From Bacilli bacterium (GTDB taxonomy: Bacteria > Bacillota_I > Bacilli_A > RF39 > UBA660): 38,587 nucleotides of DNA. Below, in pieces: positions 14,620-36,138 of the stretch. Position 1 is the stretch's first letter. Each line of letters opens with the position of its first letter. The notes under the pieces are model-generated. The model did no database searches, was not told the origin of the DNA, and was given only the letters and a program-made list of their open reading frames with translations. Where the stretch lies: positions 1 through 38,587 of the forward strand of contig JAUNMV010000002.1 in NCBI GenBank assembly GCA_030531695.1, in the 5' to 3' direction. The position numbers were made by a program, and so were the translations under genes.

Positions 14620-16362
14620 CTATTTTATCTCAACAATATCAGCACCAAATATTTGTACTGCATTATTACTTATTATATCATCATTTTTTTCTTCAATAAA
14701 TATCTCTGCTGGTTCATCTTCTAACTCATAAGAACCACCAGATTTAATTGTCTTAATATAATCATTTTTAATATCATCCCAATAAGCATCTGATATAATC
14801 GCAATTTTCTTATTAGAATTAGTAATTTGATTATAAACATCATTTAATTTATGAATCTCAGCCAAATTTTGTTTAACTATAGAATCATATTCAAAACTAA
14901 TAATTATATTATCTTCACTAACAGCTCTAATCTTAGAATCTAAAATAGAACAAGCAAGATACCCAATATCAGAATCAAATGTATAATCATTAAAAATATC
15001 TATATTAGAAATTTCTTTCATTAATAACTGTTTATTAGCCTTAGCTAAAGTATTGTGAACACGAATTTTTATAATTTCATCTAAATTAGTAATTTTATTC
15101 ACAGAAAGTTGTGGATTATTTAAATTACTATTTTCATTAGATGAAGAAGCATCATAATTACTAGTTACATCCTCTTTTGTAGTAATTTTTTTGTTATCTT
15201 CAACATCTACAATTTCTTTGTTTTTCAATGGTTTAAGAGTTTTTTCATCATAACCAACAGGTTTAATTTCAGGCTTATTAGTAACACCACTATCTACCTT
15301 ATTAGATATAACTGGCTGAGAATTCACGTTAGAGTCATTCATAAATTCTAATAAAATCATCTCTATATATATAACAGGATTAGAACTCTTCTTAATCTCT
15401 ACTAATTTTTCATTTATTAATGAAACTAATTTGTGAATTTTTAAAACATCAAATTCACATGGAATATTATCAGTATAAAACTTAACAATTTTATCACGCA
15501 TAAAGCGCATCAATTTTTCTAAAATTGTAATTAAATTTTTACCTTGCTCATTATACTTTTTTATAGAATTTAAAACTAAACTATATTCAGAGTTAAAAAT
15601 ATTTGAAAAAAATGAAGCGAGTTCTGCGTTCGTTAATGAACCATTTACATTAGCATAATCATCTAAAGTAATTTTAGAATCAGAATAAGAACGTAACTGA
15701 TCTAAAGAACTTAAAGCATCACGCATACCACCATCGCAAGAATAAGAAATTTCATCAATAACAGAATCATCTATATCAATTTTTTCTTTATCACATATTT
15801 TCTTAAGATTAGATGCAATTTTATCTGTGGAAATTCTTTTAAAAGAGAAACACTGACATCTAGAAATAATAGTTTCAGGTACTTTTTGTGGATCAGTAGT
15901 AGCTAAAATAAAAATTACATGTTCAGGTGGCTCCTCTAATGTTTTTAATAATGCATTAAACGCACCAATTGATAACATATGAACTTCATCAATAATATAT
16001 ACTTTATATTTTAATTCAGATGGAACTAAAGATATTTTATTTTTTAATTCTCTAATCTCATCTACTCCATTATTTGATGCCGCATCTATTTCTATAATAT
16101 CAACACATTCTTTTTCATAAGAATTAAGACAATTTTTACATTTTCCGCACGAATTACCATCAACTGGTTCTAAACAATTAAGTGATCTTGCAAAAATCTT
16201 AGAAATACTAGTTTTTCCAGTACCTCTAGGACCAAAAAACATATAAGCATGACTATATGATTTATTTTTAATAGAATTTCTTAAAGTCTGAACAATAGTT
16301 TCTTGACCATAAACATCATCAAATGTAAAAGGCCTATATTGTCTATATAAAGCTTTATACAT
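14620..16362 (-). CDS. dnaX: DNA polymerase III subunits gamma/tau
   Basis: DnaX is the ATPase of the clamp loader and ties the polymerases to it. The 580-residue protein has YRQYRPFTFDDVYGQE, Walker A GPRGTGKTS at about 46-54, the zinc site CLEPVDGNSCGKCKNC at about 62-77, DEVHMLS and the SRC motif IISRCQCF, then domain III and a tau-like tail of low-complexity (roughly residues 360-430) and a polymerase-binding end. The frame goes back to 16383, but GGAGG is placed 7 bases before the ATG at 16362. No slippery A-run with a following stem was noticed, so there is no evidence for a separate gamma. It is the first gene of the long operon running to 5723. Confidence 0.97.
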   Translation of the reverse strand: MYKALYRQYRPFTFDDVYGQETIVQTLRNSIKNKSYSHAYMFFGPRGTGKTSISKIFARSLNCLEPVDGNSCGKCKNCLNSYEKECVDIIEIDAASNNGVDEIRELKNKISLVPSELKYKVYIIDEVHMLSIGAFNALLKTLEEPPEHVIFILATTDPQKVPETIISRCQCFSFKRISTDKIASNLKKICDKEKIDIDDSVIDEISYSCDGGMRDALSSLDQLRSYSDSKITLDDYANVNGSLTNAELASFFSNIFNSEYSLVLNSIKKYNEQGKNLITILEKLMRFMRDKIVKFYTDNIPCEFDVLKIHKLVSLINEKLVEIKKSSNPVIYIEMILLEFMNDSNVNSQPVISNKVDSGVTNKPEIKPVGYDEKTLKPLKNKEIVDVEDNKKITTKEDVTSNYDASSSNENSNLNNPQLSVNKITNLDEIIKIRVHNTLAKANKQLLMKEISNIDIFNDYTFDSDIGYLACSILDSKIRAVSEDNIIISFEYDSIVKQNLAEIHKLNDVYNQITNSNKKIAIISDAYWDDIKNDYIKTIKSGGSYELEDEPAEIFIEEKNDDIISNNAVQIFGADIVEIK

Positions 16363-16860: not shown

Positions 16861-16886
16861 ATATATCACCTATTTTTTTATAAAAT

Positions 16887-16967
16887 AAAAAGTGCACATG
16901 GAAGTTGGACCTTAAGGCTGCTACCTTCCGATCCTGACCTGGTTCAATCGCATCCATTGCACGAATA
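16887..16967 (-). ncRNA. ffs: Small signal recognition particle RNA (4.5S type)
   Basis: The minus strand reads GAACCAGGTCAGGATCGGAAGGTAGCAGCC, here cited in parts: CCAGGTCAG and GGAAGGTAGCAGCC, the conserved Ffh-binding domain IV with its GGAA tetraloop and symmetric loop. The flanks GTGCAATGGA (16962 side) and TCCATGTGCAC (16892 side) pair to close a single hairpin, followed by TTTTTATTTT which ends transcription. The 80-base length shows the short eubacterial form without the Alu domain, unlike the long 6S-like scRNA of B. subtilis. The ends are estimated from the -10 box and the T run. Confidence 0.93.
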
Positions 16968-16973
16968 TATTGT

Positions 16974-17003: not shown

Positions 17004-17019
17004 TGTTTCACGTGGAACA
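17004..17019. promoter_or_regulatory. parS site 1 (ParB binding)
   Basis: TGTTTCACGTGGAACA. The reverse complement is TGTTCCACGTGAAACA, a full match to the bacterial parS consensus TGTTNCACGTGAAACA. ParB loads here as a CTP-dependent clamp. Confidence 0.95.
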
Positions 17020-17076
17020 TTTTTTTTGTTTAATAAGAAGAATAAAGCATATATACAGTGGATAATTGTTTAATAA

Positions 17077-17092
17077 TGTTTCACGTGGAACA
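17077..17092. promoter_or_regulatory. parS site 2 (ParB binding)
   Basis: Identical 16-mer and same orientation as site 1, 73 bases further on. Confidence 0.95.
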
Positions 17093-17133
17093 TAATAGCT
17101 CACTAAATAAATAAATATACTTTCAGTAGAAAA

Positions 17134-17149
17134 TGTTTCACGTGGAACA
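17134..17149. promoter_or_regulatory. parS site 3 (ParB binding)
   Basis: Identical 16-mer and same orientation, 57 bases after site 2. Confidence 0.95.
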
Positions 17150-17216
17150 TCAATCGATAAATCAAAATAATTGTGTAATTGTTGATTAACTTTTTAAGCA
17201 TTAAATAATAAAATAA

Positions 17217-17232
17217 TGTTTCACGTGGAACA
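17217..17232. promoter_or_regulatory. parS site 4 (ParB binding)
   Basis: Identical 16-mer and same orientation, 83 bases after site 3 and about 60 bases before the first perfect Noc site. Confidence 0.95.
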
Positions 17233-17263
17233 TGCTAATAAATATTGTGGAATATGTATTATT

Positions 17264-17293: not shown

Positions 17294-17317
17294 AAATTAT
17301 TTCCCGGGAAATAATTT
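17294..17317. promoter_or_regulatory. Noc-binding site 1 (NBS)
   Basis: The core ATTTCCCGGGAAAT is the known B. subtilis NBS; here it is embedded in a perfect 24-base palindrome (flanks AAATT/AATTT). A Noc-type protein is encoded at 33049-34338. Confidence 0.9.
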
Positions 17318-17349
17318 GATGTGGAAATAATGTTTTTTTATAATTTATT

Positions 17350-17367
17350 TTATTTCCCGGGAAATAA
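17350..17367. promoter_or_regulatory. Noc-binding site 2 (NBS)
   Basis: TTATTTCCCGGGAAATAA, an 18-base perfect palindrome with the full NBS core, centred 53 bases from the centre of site 1. Confidence 0.9.
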
Positions 17368-17528
17368 TTAATACTATTTAAATGCATTTTGAGAAAATTT
17401 AATGTATAACTTATTTATTCTAAAAAAATAAATCTCTCTAAATGCATTATTTAAAAATATTTATTGTGGAAACTATATTAAGTAAAACAATAATGCAAAT
17501 TGTGGAAAAAATATTTTAACAAAAGTAA

Positions 17529-17650
17529 AACGCAATATGTGAATAAAAATATAAAAAACAAAACGTATTGTGTTAATAAAAATTTATAAAAAGTATTGAA
17601 CGCATTATGCGTGAAAAAAATATCAAAAAAAATCTAACGCATTGTGCGTT
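17529..17650. repeat. Array of four ACGCATTATGCGT-like palindromes
   Basis: Four related elements start at 17530 (ACGCAATATGTG), 17563 (ACGTATTGTGTT), 17600 (ACGCATTATGCGT, a perfect 13-base palindrome) and 17637 (ACGCATTGTGCGT). Starts are 33, 37 and 37 bases apart and the spacers are A-rich. The last copy, with its flanks, also forms the gyrA terminator. The regular spacing argues for either a protein-binding array or repeated duplication of the terminator. No known site family is recognised. Confidence 0.7.
17538..17546 (-). promoter_or_regulatory. Isolated DnaA-box match
   Basis: TGTGAATAA, the complement of TTATTCACA, matches the DnaA box consensus TTATNCACA. It overlaps the first copy of the palindrome array and stands alone, so it may be chance in AT-rich DNA. 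Confidence 0.3.
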
Positions 17651-17653
17651 AGA
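17624..17653 (-). terminator. Strong intrinsic terminator after gyrA
   Basis: On the minus strand TCTAACGCA-CAA-TGCGTTAGA, a perfect 9-bp stem (17633-17653), followed by eight T residues. It ends the recF-gyrB-gyrA unit, 13 bases after the gyrA stop. Confidence 0.9.
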
Positions 17654-17666
17654 CTTCTTTTATCAT

Positions 17667-20174
17667 TTATTCAGTCTCTTCTTCGCTTGTTTGCTCAACT
17701 ACATCAGATACTTCTGTATCAGTATCAATTGATTCAGAATTAACATCATCATTTGAACTTTCTTCTTCTTTTTCTACAACAGCTACAGATGAAACTATTT
17801 GATCATCTTTCAAGTTAATAAGTCTTAAACCTTGAGTAGCACGTTTTAATATAGATACTTGAGATAATGGCATCTTCATTACTACACCACTATTTGTAAT
17901 AAGCATTAAATCATAATTTTCAATGTCATTTACCTTTTCAAGATCAGTCATTAAACCATTCTTATCAGTAACATTATATGCTTTAACACCTTTACTTCCC
18001 CTATGAGTTAATCTATATTCACTTATTGGAGAAATCTTACCATATCCACTTTCAGTAACTATTAGAATTAAATCTTCTTCATTTACTACATCTGCTCCAA
18101 CAACAATACTTCCATCTAAATCCATACCTTTAACACCAGCAGCAGATCTTCCCATGACTCTTACTTCATTTTCATCGAATCTATTCATCTTACCATTCTT
18201 AGCTCCGATAACAAGAATATTTTTTCCACATGTCTTGTTTACACTAATTAACTCATCATCATCTTTTAAACTAATGGCAATTTTACCACTCTTACGTATA
18301 TTTTCAAACTCATTAATATCAGTTCTCTTAACAAGACCTTGTTTAGTAACAAAGGCTAAATACTTAATATCTTCATCATTTGAAACATTTATTATCGAAC
18401 TAATGTTCTCTTCTTTTTCTAGTGGTAATAAGTTAATAATTGGTAATCCTTTTGACTGTCTAGAAAATTCAGGGATTTCATATCCTTTAATTCTATAAAC
18501 TTTACCTTTATTTGAGAAGAACATTACATGATCATGTGTTTTTAAAGAAATCATTTGATCAACAATATCTTCTTCATTAGTTGTCATACCTTTAATACCT
18601 ACTCCACCTCTATTTTGTGTTTTATAAGTATCTTTTCTTAATCTCTTAATATAACCATTCTTAGTTAATGTAATAATTACATCTTCATTAGGAATTAATG
18701 ATTCATCTTCAATATAATCAATTGCTGTCATATCAATATGTGTTTTACGCTCATCTCCGTAACGTTCTTTAATATCTAGTAATTCTTCCTTGATTACACC
18801 TAAAACACGCTCATCGCTAGCTAAAATAGCCTTTAATTCAGCAATTTGAACTAATAAATCATTTAATTCATTTTCAATTTTCTCTCTTTCTAATCCAGTT
18901 AAACGACGTAACTTCATTTCAAGAATTGCATTTGCCTGAACTTCAGTTAATTTAAAGTTAGTCATTAAACCTTCTTTAGCTTCATCATCAGAAGCAGCAC
19001 CTCTAATTAATTTAATAACAGCATCAATATTATCAAGAGCAATCTTTAATCCTTCTAAAATATGAACTCTTTCTTCACATTTATTTAAATCAAATTTTGT
19101 TCTTCTGATAATAATTTCTTTTTGGAACTCTATATATTTAGAAATAATATCAATTAAACCTAAAGTCTTAGGAGTTCCTTGATCTAACATTAAGAATATA
19201 ATTCCATATGTCTTTTGAAAATCTGTATGTTTATATAATTGATTTAAAATAACTTGTGCATTTGCATCCCTTTTTAAAGAAATAGTTATTTTAATTCCTT
19301 CTTTTAAATCTGAATGATAATCTGAAATACCCTCAATTGTCTTATTGTGAACTAATTCAGCAACTTTATTTTTTAAATCTAATGTATTAACACCATAAGG
19401 AACTTCATCAATTACAATAAATTGTTTACCATTTTCTTCCTCTATTGTAGCTTTACTACGAATAGTAATTGAACCTCTACCAGTTTCATAAGCTTGTCTA
19501 ATACCACTATTACCTAAAATAATAGCTCCAGTAGGGAAATCTGGTCCTTTAATATGTTGCATCATTTCATCTAATGTAATATCAGGATTATCAATATAAG
19601 CAACACATCCATCAATAACTTCACTTAAATTATGAGGTGGAATATTAGTAGCCATACCAACAGCAATACCAGTTGTACCATTTACTAATATATTAGGGAA
19701 TCTAGAAGGTAAAACTGAAGGTTCTCTTTCACTTTCATCAAAGTTAGGAGTAAAATCAACAGTTTCTTTATTAATATTTCTAAGTAATTCAAGAGAAATC
19801 TTAGATAATCTAGATTCTGTATAACGCATAGCAGCAGCACCATAACCTTCAATATTACCAAAGTTACCATGACCATCTACTAACATATAACGATAAGAAA
19901 AGTCTTGAGCCATTCTTACCATTGCTTCATAGATTGAAGAATCACCATGTGGGTGAAATTTACCCATAACATCTCCAACTATTCTTGCACTCTTCTTATG
20001 AGGTTTATCAGGAGTATATCCTGAAGAATACATTGAGTATAAAATTCTACGATGAACTGGCTTTAAACCATCTCTTAAATCAGGTAAAGCACGAGCTACA
20101 ATAACACTCATTGAATACTCTAAGAATGAGTCTTCAACTTCTTTTACTATATTATTTTTCTCTAAACGATCCAT
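17667..20174 (-). CDS. gyrA: DNA gyrase subunit A
   Basis: GyrA is the DNA-cleaving subunit of gyrase, which adds negative supercoils using ATP hydrolysed by GyrB. The 835-residue protein has the winged-helix cleavage domain with catalytic Tyr118 ([10 protein letters not shown]) and the quinolone region [19 protein letters not shown]: Ser79 and Glu83 correspond to E. coli Ser83 and Asp87, so the common resistance substitutions are absent. The C-terminal beta-pinwheel carries the GyrA box as QNRGGVG, which departs from the usual QRRGGKG at two positions. The protein ends in an acidic tail rich in Glu, Asp and Ser. AGGAGG precedes the ATG. It follows gyrB by 10 bases and ends at a strong terminator. 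Adjacency to gyrB and recF at oriC supports gyrase rather than topoisomerase IV. Confidence 0.97.
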
Positions 20175-33048: not shown

Positions 33049-34338
33049 ATGAATAACGAAACAAAAGATGAAGTAGTTTATTTATACTTAGATGATATTA
33101 TACCTAATAGATTTCAACCAAGAGAGGTTTTTGATGAGAGAGCATTAAAAGAATTAGCAGTATCTATTAGAGAACATGGTGTTATTCAACCTATTATTGT
33201 AAGAAAAGTTAATGGTAAGTATGAAATAATTGCTGGTGAAAGAAGATATAAAGCATCTGCATTAGCTGGATTAACTAAAATTCCTGCAATAGTTAGAGAT
33301 TTAGATGATAAAGAAAGTTCTAAAGTAGCATTACTTGAAAACCTTCAAAGAAAGAATTTAAGCCCTATAGAAGAAGCAAGAACATATCAAAAAATATTAG
33401 AGATAGATCAAATGACTCAAGAAGAATTGGCTAAAACTATGGGAAAAAGCCAAGCTTCTGTTGCTAATAAATTAAGATTATTAACACTTCCAGATGAAGT
33501 ACAAGAAGCATTATTAAAAGAGCAAATATCTGAACGTCATGCTAGAAGTTTATTAAGTATTCCAGATGTTAAAAAACAAAAAGATATGCTAAAGAAAATA
33601 ATAAATGAAAAAATGAGCGTAAGAAGTCTAGAAGAAGAAATTAAACAAGAATATCATAAAGAAGAGGAACCTGTAATAGAAGAAGTAGAAGAAGAAAAAG
33701 GAATTCCAGAAATATCTCTTCAAAATGATTTTATGAATAATGCTCCATTAATGCCTACTAATGAATTTGCACCTAAAGAAGAAAGTTATGGATCATTTAA
33801 AGTTGTTCCACCAGATGAAGATATGCATGAAGAAACTCCTAAATTTATTAATTATGGAGATGTAAAAAATGAAGAAGAGATTATTAATAATGCTCCAACT
33901 CAATTAAATCTAGAAAGTAATATGGAACCTATTGATATTTCAAGTATAAAAGAAAATACAGAAGATCTAAATATTGATAAATCACAAGTTGGTGGATTAG
34001 ATTCACTACTAAATATTGGTAGTGGTGCAACAGGTCCATCAATTGGTGGAGATAATTTTAAATTTATAACACCAGCTGAAGGATTAGTAAAAGAAGAATC
34101 TAATAAACAAGAAGAAAAAACAGATGGAGATTATTTTAGACCAATGGATAATGATAGTTTTACTGATGCTATTCCTGAAGCATTTATATCACCTGCTGAT
34201 GAAAAATATTCTATTGATACAGCAGTAGAAAAAATTAAAGAATTAGTAGAAGATTTAAAAGCTCATGGAATTGAATTAAAGACAGATGAAATGAATTTTG
34301 AAAAATCTTATCAAATAATTATAAAATTAGCAAAATAA
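33049..34338 (+). CDS. noc: Nucleoid occlusion protein Noc with a long acidic insert
   Basis: A ParB-like CTPase of 429 residues, against 283 in B. subtilis Noc. The N-terminal ParB domain has FQPRxxFDE and GERRYKAS (63-70, CTP motif), then a helix-turn-helix (TQEELAKTMGKSQASVANKL). At the four residues known to switch ParB to Noc specificity it has Gln135 (GKSQ), Lys141 (NKLRLL) and Arg163 (SERHAR), all Noc-like; the fourth (Thr146) is neither. The ParB encoded downstream has GKSR and SMGHAR instead. Residues about 203-385 are an acidic, Asn/Pro-rich, likely unfolded stretch, and the last 43 residues look like the dimerisation helix domain. The N-terminus lacks the amphipathic membrane helix of B. 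subtilis Noc. Order rsmG-noc-parA-parB is as in B. subtilis; perfect Noc sites exist at 17294 and 17350. Confidence 0.9.
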   Translation: MNNETKDEVVYLYLDDIIPNRFQPREVFDERALKELAVSIREHGVIQPIIVRKVNGKYEIIAGERRYKASALAGLTKIPAIVRDLDDKESSKVALLENLQRKNLSPIEEARTYQKILEIDQMTQEELAKTMGKSQASVANKLRLLTLPDEVQEALLKEQISERHARSLLSIPDVKKQKDMLKKIINEKMSVRSLEEEIKQEYHKEEEPVIEEVEEEKGIPEISLQNDFMNNAPLMPTNEFAPKEESYGSFKVVPPDEDMHEETPKFINYGDVKNEEEIINNAPTQLNLESNMEPIDISSIKENTEDLNIDKSQVGGLDSLLNIGSGATGPSIGGDNFKFITPAEGLVKEESNKQEEKTDGDYFRPMDNDSFTDAIPEAFISPADEKYSIDTAVEKIKELVEDLKAHGIELKTDEMNFEKSYQIIIKLAK

Positions 34339-34454: not shown

Positions 34455-35243
34455 ATGGGAAAGGTTATATCATTAGTAAATCAAAAAGGTGGAGTAGGTA
34501 AAACTACTACTAGCATAAATCTTTCTGCATCATTAGCAGTATTAGGGAAAAAAACACTATTAATAGATTTGGATCCTCAAGGAAATACAACTACTGGTGT
34601 AGGAATAAATAAAGGTGAAATAGAAAAGAGTGCATATGATGTTTTAATAGGAGAATGTGAAATATCAGATGCTATGATAAAAACTAAATATAAAAACTTA
34701 TATGTCTTACCTGCTACAATCAATCTAGCTGGTTTAGACATAGAATTAATAGAAAAAAGTAAAATAGAAAGTACATTCTCAAAAGGTGAACAACTAAAGA
34801 ATCATATAGAAAAAATTAGAGATAAGTTTGACTATATAATTATAGATTGTCCTCCTTCATTAGGCGTTATTACAACAAATGCTTTAACTGCATCAAACTC
34901 AGTAATAATCCCAGTACAATGTGAATTCTTTGCGCTAGAAGGAATTACACAATTATTAAAGACAATAATGCTAGCTCAAAAAAATTTAAATCCAACATTA
35001 GATATAGAAGGAGTTCTATTAACTATGTTAGATTCTAGAACAAACTTAGGATTTGAAGTTGTAGATGACATAAGAAAATTCTTCAAAGAAAAAGTTTATA
35101 ACACAATAATTCCAAGACTTGTTAGATTAACAGAGGCTCCATCACACGGAGAACCTATTATTGCATATGATCCAAAGAGTAGAGGATCTGAAGCATACCT
35201 AAATTTAGCTAAGGAAGTGATTGAAAGAAATGGAAACAAATAA
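34455..35243 (+). CDS. parA: Chromosome-partitioning ATPase ParA (Soj)
   Basis: ParA drives origin segregation and, in B. subtilis, regulates DnaA. The 262-residue protein begins VISLVNQKGGVGKTTTSIN (deviant Walker A, Lys11 and Lys16), has DLDPQGNTTTG, IIDCPPSLGVIT and the C-terminal helices. GGGTGATTAG precedes the ATG. It overlaps parB by 23 bases. Confidence 0.97.
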   Translation: MGKVISLVNQKGGVGKTTTSINLSASLAVLGKKTLLIDLDPQGNTTTGVGINKGEIEKSAYDVLIGECEISDAMIKTKYKNLYVLPATINLAGLDIELIEKSKIESTFSKGEQLKNHIEKIRDKFDYIIIDCPPSLGVITTNALTASNSVIIPVQCEFFALEGITQLLKTIMLAQKNLNPTLDIEGVLLTMLDSRTNLGFEVVDDIRKFFKEKVYNTIIPRLVRLTEAPSHGEPIIAYDPKSRGSEAYLNLAKEVIERNGNK

Positions 35244-36138
35244 TGAAAATCAAGCACCTAAGAGAAGAGCATTAGGTAGAGGACTAGAAGAATTATTCTA
35301 TAACGAACCAATCAACTATGAAAAAGTAGAAGAAAAGATAATAAGAGAAACTCCAAAAGAAGAAATAGTAAATGTTAAATTAGATGAATTAAGAAGCAAT
35401 CCATATCAGCCAAGAAAGATATTTGATGAAGAAGCATTAAATGAATTAGCAGCATCTATTAAAGAACATGGAGTATTTCAACCAATTATTGTTAAGAAGA
35501 GTATTAAAGGATATGAAATAATTGCTGGTGAACGAAGAGTAAAAGCTTCACAATTAGCTGGTAAGAAAGAAATTCCTGCAATTATCAGAAACTTTGATGA
35601 TACTCAAATGATGGAAATTGCCTTACTAGAAAACTTACAAAGAGAAAACTTAAGTGCAATAGAAGAATCTATGGCATATAAGAAATTACAAGATACTTTA
35701 GGATTAACACAAGAACAGTTGGCAGAAAGATTAGGAAAGAGTAGAAGCCATATAACTAATATGTTAGGTCTATTAAATCTTCCAGAATCTATCCAAAAAG
35801 AAGTAGGAGAAAAGAAAATCTCTATGGGACATGCTAGAGTATTAAGTAAACTAGAAAGTAAGGAACAACAAGAAGAATTAGCAAATAAAGTAATAGAAGA
35901 TGGCTTAAGTGTTAGAGAGTTAGAAACACTAACACAAGAAAAAGAGCAATACGCTAGAACTCATAAGATAAATAAAACATATAAATCTAACAATGAATAT
36001 AAATATATACAAGAAGATTTATGTGAAAAGTTAGGTACAAAAGTAAAAATAAAAAATAATAAAATTGAAATAAGCTTTGTTAATGGTAATGATCTAAATA
36101 GAATTCTTGAAATCATGAAAGTTGATAATAGAGGTTAA
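35221..36138 (+). CDS. parB: Chromosome-partitioning protein ParB (Spo0J)
   Basis: ParB is a CTP-dependent clamp that loads at parS and spreads. It has the ParA-stimulating peptide LGRGLEELF near residue 20, a ParB N domain with NPYQPRKIFDE and GERRVKAS, a helix-turn-helix with GKSRSHITNMLGLL and SMGHAR (ParB-type specificity), and a C-terminal dimerisation domain, total 305 residues. The TTG at 35221 has AAGGA 5 bases upstream; an ATG at 35230 is an alternative start. Its target sites are the four parS at 17004-17232. Confidence 0.96.
   Translation: MKEMETNNENQAPKRRALGRGLEELFYNEPINYEKVEEKIIRETPKEEIVNVKLDELRSNPYQPRKIFDEEALNELAASIKEHGVFQPIIVKKSIKGYEIIAGERRVKASQLAGKKEIPAIIRNFDDTQMMEIALLENLQRENLSAIEESMAYKKLQDTLGLTQEQLAERLGKSRSHITNMLGLLNLPESIQKEVGEKKISMGHARVLSKLESKEQQEELANKVIEDGLSVRELETLTQEKEQYARTHKINKTYKSNNEYKYIQEDLCEKLGTKVKIKNNKIEISFVNGNDLNRILEIMKVDNRG

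Follow-up and report, generated by a model that had tools for sequence, protein, structure and literature searches.

Beside the ParB and Noc loading sites downstream of gyrA, a low-GC member of the Bacilli carries an array of short ACGCA elements that is real, specific to this locus, recurrent within one genus and more than a duplicated terminator. The elements are clustered, unique in the genome and found at the same position in related species. They are best read as young, fast-evolving, operator-like predicted sites within the centromere block, with a putative function in protein binding. At a probability of about one half, we take them to be lineage-specific putative binding sites for a dimeric helix-turn-helix protein outside the ParB family, possibly one of the Cro/CI (XRE) class.

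Results

The window, the whole stretch of 38,587 nucleotides that was analysed, makes up the origin region of a low-GC metagenome-assembled genome (MAG) of 1.46 Mb in 84 contigs, ~81% complete, which belongs to uncultured Bacilli of the gut. It carries dnaA at 25.2–26.6 kb and noc, soj and parB at 33–36 kb. The intergenic block 3′ of gyrA (gene call at 17667–20174, minus strand) ends at its left border with the bacterial small SRP RNA (ffs; 16879–16973, minus strand), followed by tadA. Between gyrA and the SRP RNA lie four parS sites for ParB (TGTTTCACGTGGAACA; 17018–17233), two NBS sites for Noc with their flanks (ATTTCCCGGGAAAT; 17308–17370), and then the elements reported here. No convincing ORF was found in the ffs–gyrA interval, whose only neighbours are gyrA, tadA and ffs. 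B. subtilis Noc carries an N-terminal membrane-targeting helix; a helix of this type is apparently missing from the window Noc (429 aa; 33049–34338, plus strand), which begins at its ParB_N domain and has a long acidic insert ahead of its C-terminal end.

Re-reading the sequence confirmed the four elements at 17530, 17563, 17600 and 17637, with spacings of 33, 37 and 37 bp; their description in the original prediction as 13-base palindromes held for the last two, which have the form ACGCA-N3-TGCGT, but not for the degenerate first two. Element 3 (ACGCATTATGCGT; 17600–17612) is a perfect 5-3-5 palindrome whose 13-mer recurs at the syntenic place in the congener G005, and element 4 (ACGCATTGTGCGT; 17637–17649) is a perfect palindrome within the gyrA terminator stem; 12 and 10 of their 13 positions, respectively, are self-complementary, compared with 6 and 2 for elements 1 and 2. 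Element 1 (ACGCAATATGTGA; 17530–17542) has one good half-site, a degenerate second half and no RNA hairpin, and the degenerate element 2 (ACGTATTGTGTTA; 17563–17575) is its 33-bp tandem copy, Tandem Repeats Finder reporting a two-copy 33-bp repeat with an 81% match at 17527–17592.

The exact palindrome ACGCANNNTGCGT occurs in its own 1.46-Mb genome at 17600 and 17637 only. Across the 1.285 Mb of the genome that was read, noncoding ACGCA/TGCGT words number 20, and 5 of them sit in the array (~120 bp), which is the sole noncoding cluster with more than two such words, and no second target of the array word was found in this 88% of the genome. None of 2000 dinucleotide shuffles of the 302-bp region matched the observed ACGCA count, to which each palindrome contributes both of its halves. 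The weaker ATGCATT elements proposed to continue upstream, which lie at 17382, 17442 and 17493 (ATGCAAA), rose above shuffles in the window genome but were not enriched in any of the five congeners, and we therefore left them out of the array. A further local excess of ACGCA/TGCGT lies within dnaX (15496–15960), in the congeners too; it was rejected as a second array since it is coding and explained by conserved repeated Met-Arg codons (ATGCGT).

We then compared six species of the genus (G000–G005, window genome included), all draft MAGs. Among the five congeners, the exact palindrome occurs once, in G005 at the same spot downstream of gyrA, so that in the six genomes it is confined to this locus in two species. 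Six of the eight listed places with at most one mismatch from ACGCAWWATGCGT fall in the gyrA-downstream intergenic region of the six genomes. With the window genome set aside, the five congeners hold 18 ACGCA words at the locus versus 3.0 expected, a count reached in none of 500 shuffles. By species, G000, G002, G004 and G005 show a significant excess, G003 a borderline one and G001 none; in the sampled contigs of the first four, no window is denser in ACGCA than the array locus. Copy number, spacing, half-site content and completeness of the palindrome vary strongly between species: G004 has single unpaired half-sites in both orientations, G003 two terminator-like copies alone, and G001 retains the terminator copy alone. 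Copies that are not terminators nevertheless recur at the same place in G002, G004 and G005; conservation of the terminator copy alone, the pattern that the original prediction had named as speaking against a binding array, was not found, and if anything the reverse holds. In G004 (L007), what looks by eye like a piece of an IS200-type transposase sits between the array and gyrA.

Outside the genus, essentially no ACGCA excess was seen at ~70 gyrA-downstream loci of other genera, where parS is present and NBS usually so, which makes the array a property of one genus. It was absent from the other genera and from truncated near relatives, and the idea of a centromere element conserved throughout the family was rejected on the grounds that ACGCA is near zero at the same place in other genera. 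Searching for the palindrome elsewhere across the family gave scattered matches near control level, with the exception of one genome that has a repeated GC-rich variant, and our literature search found no paper describing the 13-mer as a bacterial site. In several loci of other genera of the family (L125, L119, L106, L118 and L126), the region 3′ of gyrA as far as the SRP RNA holds either tandem alternating parS and NBS units, with up to ~8–9 of each site, or eight NBS alone, and so forms a built-in ParB/Noc centromere array.

The resemblance of the elements to operators was assessed against phage and mobile-element Cro/CI (XRE) regulators. Palindromic symmetry and at least two regularly spaced copies, as looked for in an operator, were both found, with two perfect and two weak copies at 33/37/37 bp; the phage and mobile-element operators have their copies in rows of two to three. 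In G217, a genome of a sister genus, ACTCAAATTGCGT, ACGCATTATGCGT and ACGCGTTATGCGA stand exactly 33 bp apart directly upstream of a gene for a 78-aa HTH_3 protein, and we presume this set to be the operator of a Cro/CI (XRE) regulator. Since the same word and the same 33-bp spacing occur there, XRE is the likeliest class for a binder of the array. Pairs of ACGCANNNTGCGT were also found at CI/Cro-type repressor genes on four phage contigs (L313, L320, L372 and L380); the viral scan, in which only loci with multiple palindromes were followed, gave a total that a rough estimate puts close to the chance number, which makes the phage analogy a post hoc selection.

In other respects the array differs from Cro/CI operators: many of its copies are half-sites, its setting is a conserved centromere block and not an immunity region, and no adjacent regulator gene or regulated promoter was found beside it, with no XRE regulator among its neighbours. 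No candidate gene for a binder was found in the genus; the G217 XRE protein has no close homologue there (best E 6e-5, generic HTH similarity), and no XRE gene in G000 has ACGCA palindromes in its own promoter. One candidate for such a promoter, C78:8699 in G000, precedes an XRE membrane regulator and was rejected because it is not palindromic. At another G000 locus (C76:814), the palindrome ACGAATTTTTCGT is flanked by a divergent XRE regulator on one side and a replication-type gene on the other and is probably a mobile-element operator.

Discussion

Duplication of the gyrA terminator, which would have produced tandem intrinsic terminators for stacked or back-up termination with the degenerate copies now dead, is a rather unlikely explanation, although part of it stands. 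The intrinsic terminator of gyrA (17624–17662, minus strand) has the core stem TCTAACGCA/TGCGTTAGA and a U run at −18.9 kcal/mol, and element 4 lies inside its hairpin at 17633–17653; on the gyrA strand, element 4 alone gave a stable hairpin and a following U run, elements 1, 2 and 3 folding at 0, −1.1 and −4.3 kcal/mol. The 33/37-bp periodicity and tandem similarity also favour duplication, as do two hairpins 37 bp apart in G003, each with a U run, and the sole copy in G001, which is a terminator. Yet if a terminator-grade hairpin is required to fold below −5 kcal/mol and to carry a U run, only 4 of the 19 copies in the genus qualify (one in the window genome, two in G003 and one in G001), and with the other 15 unable to fold as terminators, the proposal does not explain the array, even if it accounts for the copies of G003 and G001. 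In G002, G004 and G005 the terminator is another hairpin and the ACGCA words remain outside it, in G005 neither strand of the perfect palindrome has a U run, and the half-sites of G004 are unpaired and lie in both orientations. Neutral leftovers of a short minisatellite that underwent a single expansion at the base of the genus, and now decays without function, we consider unlikely. The 33-bp tandem repeat and the variable copy number are what such decay would leave, and the tandem parS–NBS repeats formed by this block in other genera mark the locus as prone to duplication; against it, GC-rich cores (CGC) survive in DNA of 17–23% GC while the spacers align poorly between species, and copies occur in both orientations.

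Two further explanations involve DnaA and a ParB-family clamp. DnaA-box clusters such as datA, DARS and DBC resemble the array in being noncoding, origin-proximal groups of short sites, irregular in spacing and orientation, and DnaA-box-like elements are interleaved with the array, among them ATTGTGGAAAAAATATT (17499–17515, plus strand), which recurs in the same region of congeners. GTGGAA/TCCACA is enriched when the arrays of the six species are taken together, and GTGGAA is the other enriched word besides ACGCA in the five congeners, so that two enriched words share one region in six species; TTTTCCACA is used at oriC of the window genome too. A datA/DARS-like control cluster, in which ACGCA and TTTTCCACA would jointly titrate or regulate DnaA, is nonetheless improbable: ACGCA differs from the DnaA box and does not occur at oriC, and the block of the window genome has one strict TTWTCCACA box, a number reached in 64 of 2000 shuffles and thus not much above chance. 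A DnaA-box-like TTTTTTCCACAA element, here at 17499–17515, recurs close to the end of gyrA across most of the family's genera. That a third ParB-family CTPase clamp loads at the array is barely credible, even though the array adjoins parS and NBS in the same intergenic block, shares with these Bacillota sites the character of short, clustered, origin-proximal palindromes and, like them, would have a dimeric HTH binder. The array has another sequence, is restricted to one genus and consists of 13-bp 5-3-5 elements with a 3-bp centre, unlike the 14–16-bp parS and NBS. Exactly two HTH_ParB proteins above the cut-off were found in each genome of all six species, matching parS and NBS and leaving no third ParB-family protein to load at the array. 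PMC7383237 describes the residues that set specificity; in an alignment with the solved Noc and Spo0J structures, the window Noc has at these positions Q, K and R (NBS-type) and the window ParB/Spo0J (305 aa; 35221–36138, plus strand) has R and G (parS-type), which fit the NBS and parS codes, so both sites have their proteins. A third ParB paralogue as binder was accordingly rejected; an additional ParB_N-domain protein of 288 aa is present in G004 only (G004:C76:3610-3891). The proposed third array beside the parS/NBS block is thus real and recurs in congeners, but its reading as the site of a further ParB-family clamp found no support.

We therefore return to a dimeric helix-turn-helix protein outside the ParB family as the putative binder. 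Its full site would be the 13-bp palindrome ACGCA-N3-TGCGT, with weaker copies keeping one half-site, WACGCAWWA, and binding may be cooperative as in phage operators. The protein would then sit beside the sites where ParB and Noc load, among the DnaA-box-like elements, and the bound array might mark or organise the origin-proximal centromere region, or tune origin or segregation activity. The array may have evolved by tandem duplication of a 33–37-bp unit followed by decay, its last copy in the window species having merged with the gyrA terminator.

Sequence-specific markers of the origin region are few in bacteria: ParB, Noc, DnaA, RacA and some others. In a bolder form of the proposal, which we hold to be quite unlikely, the genus would have recruited a phage-type (XRE/CI) protein to join ParB and Noc as a third sequence-specific centromere component, each chromosome carrying one dedicated array. 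Were the elements terminator debris only, they would show that terminator stems are able to mimic operators. If a third array was indeed recently gained in the parS/NBS block, it would allow the recruitment of a new centromere component to be studied.
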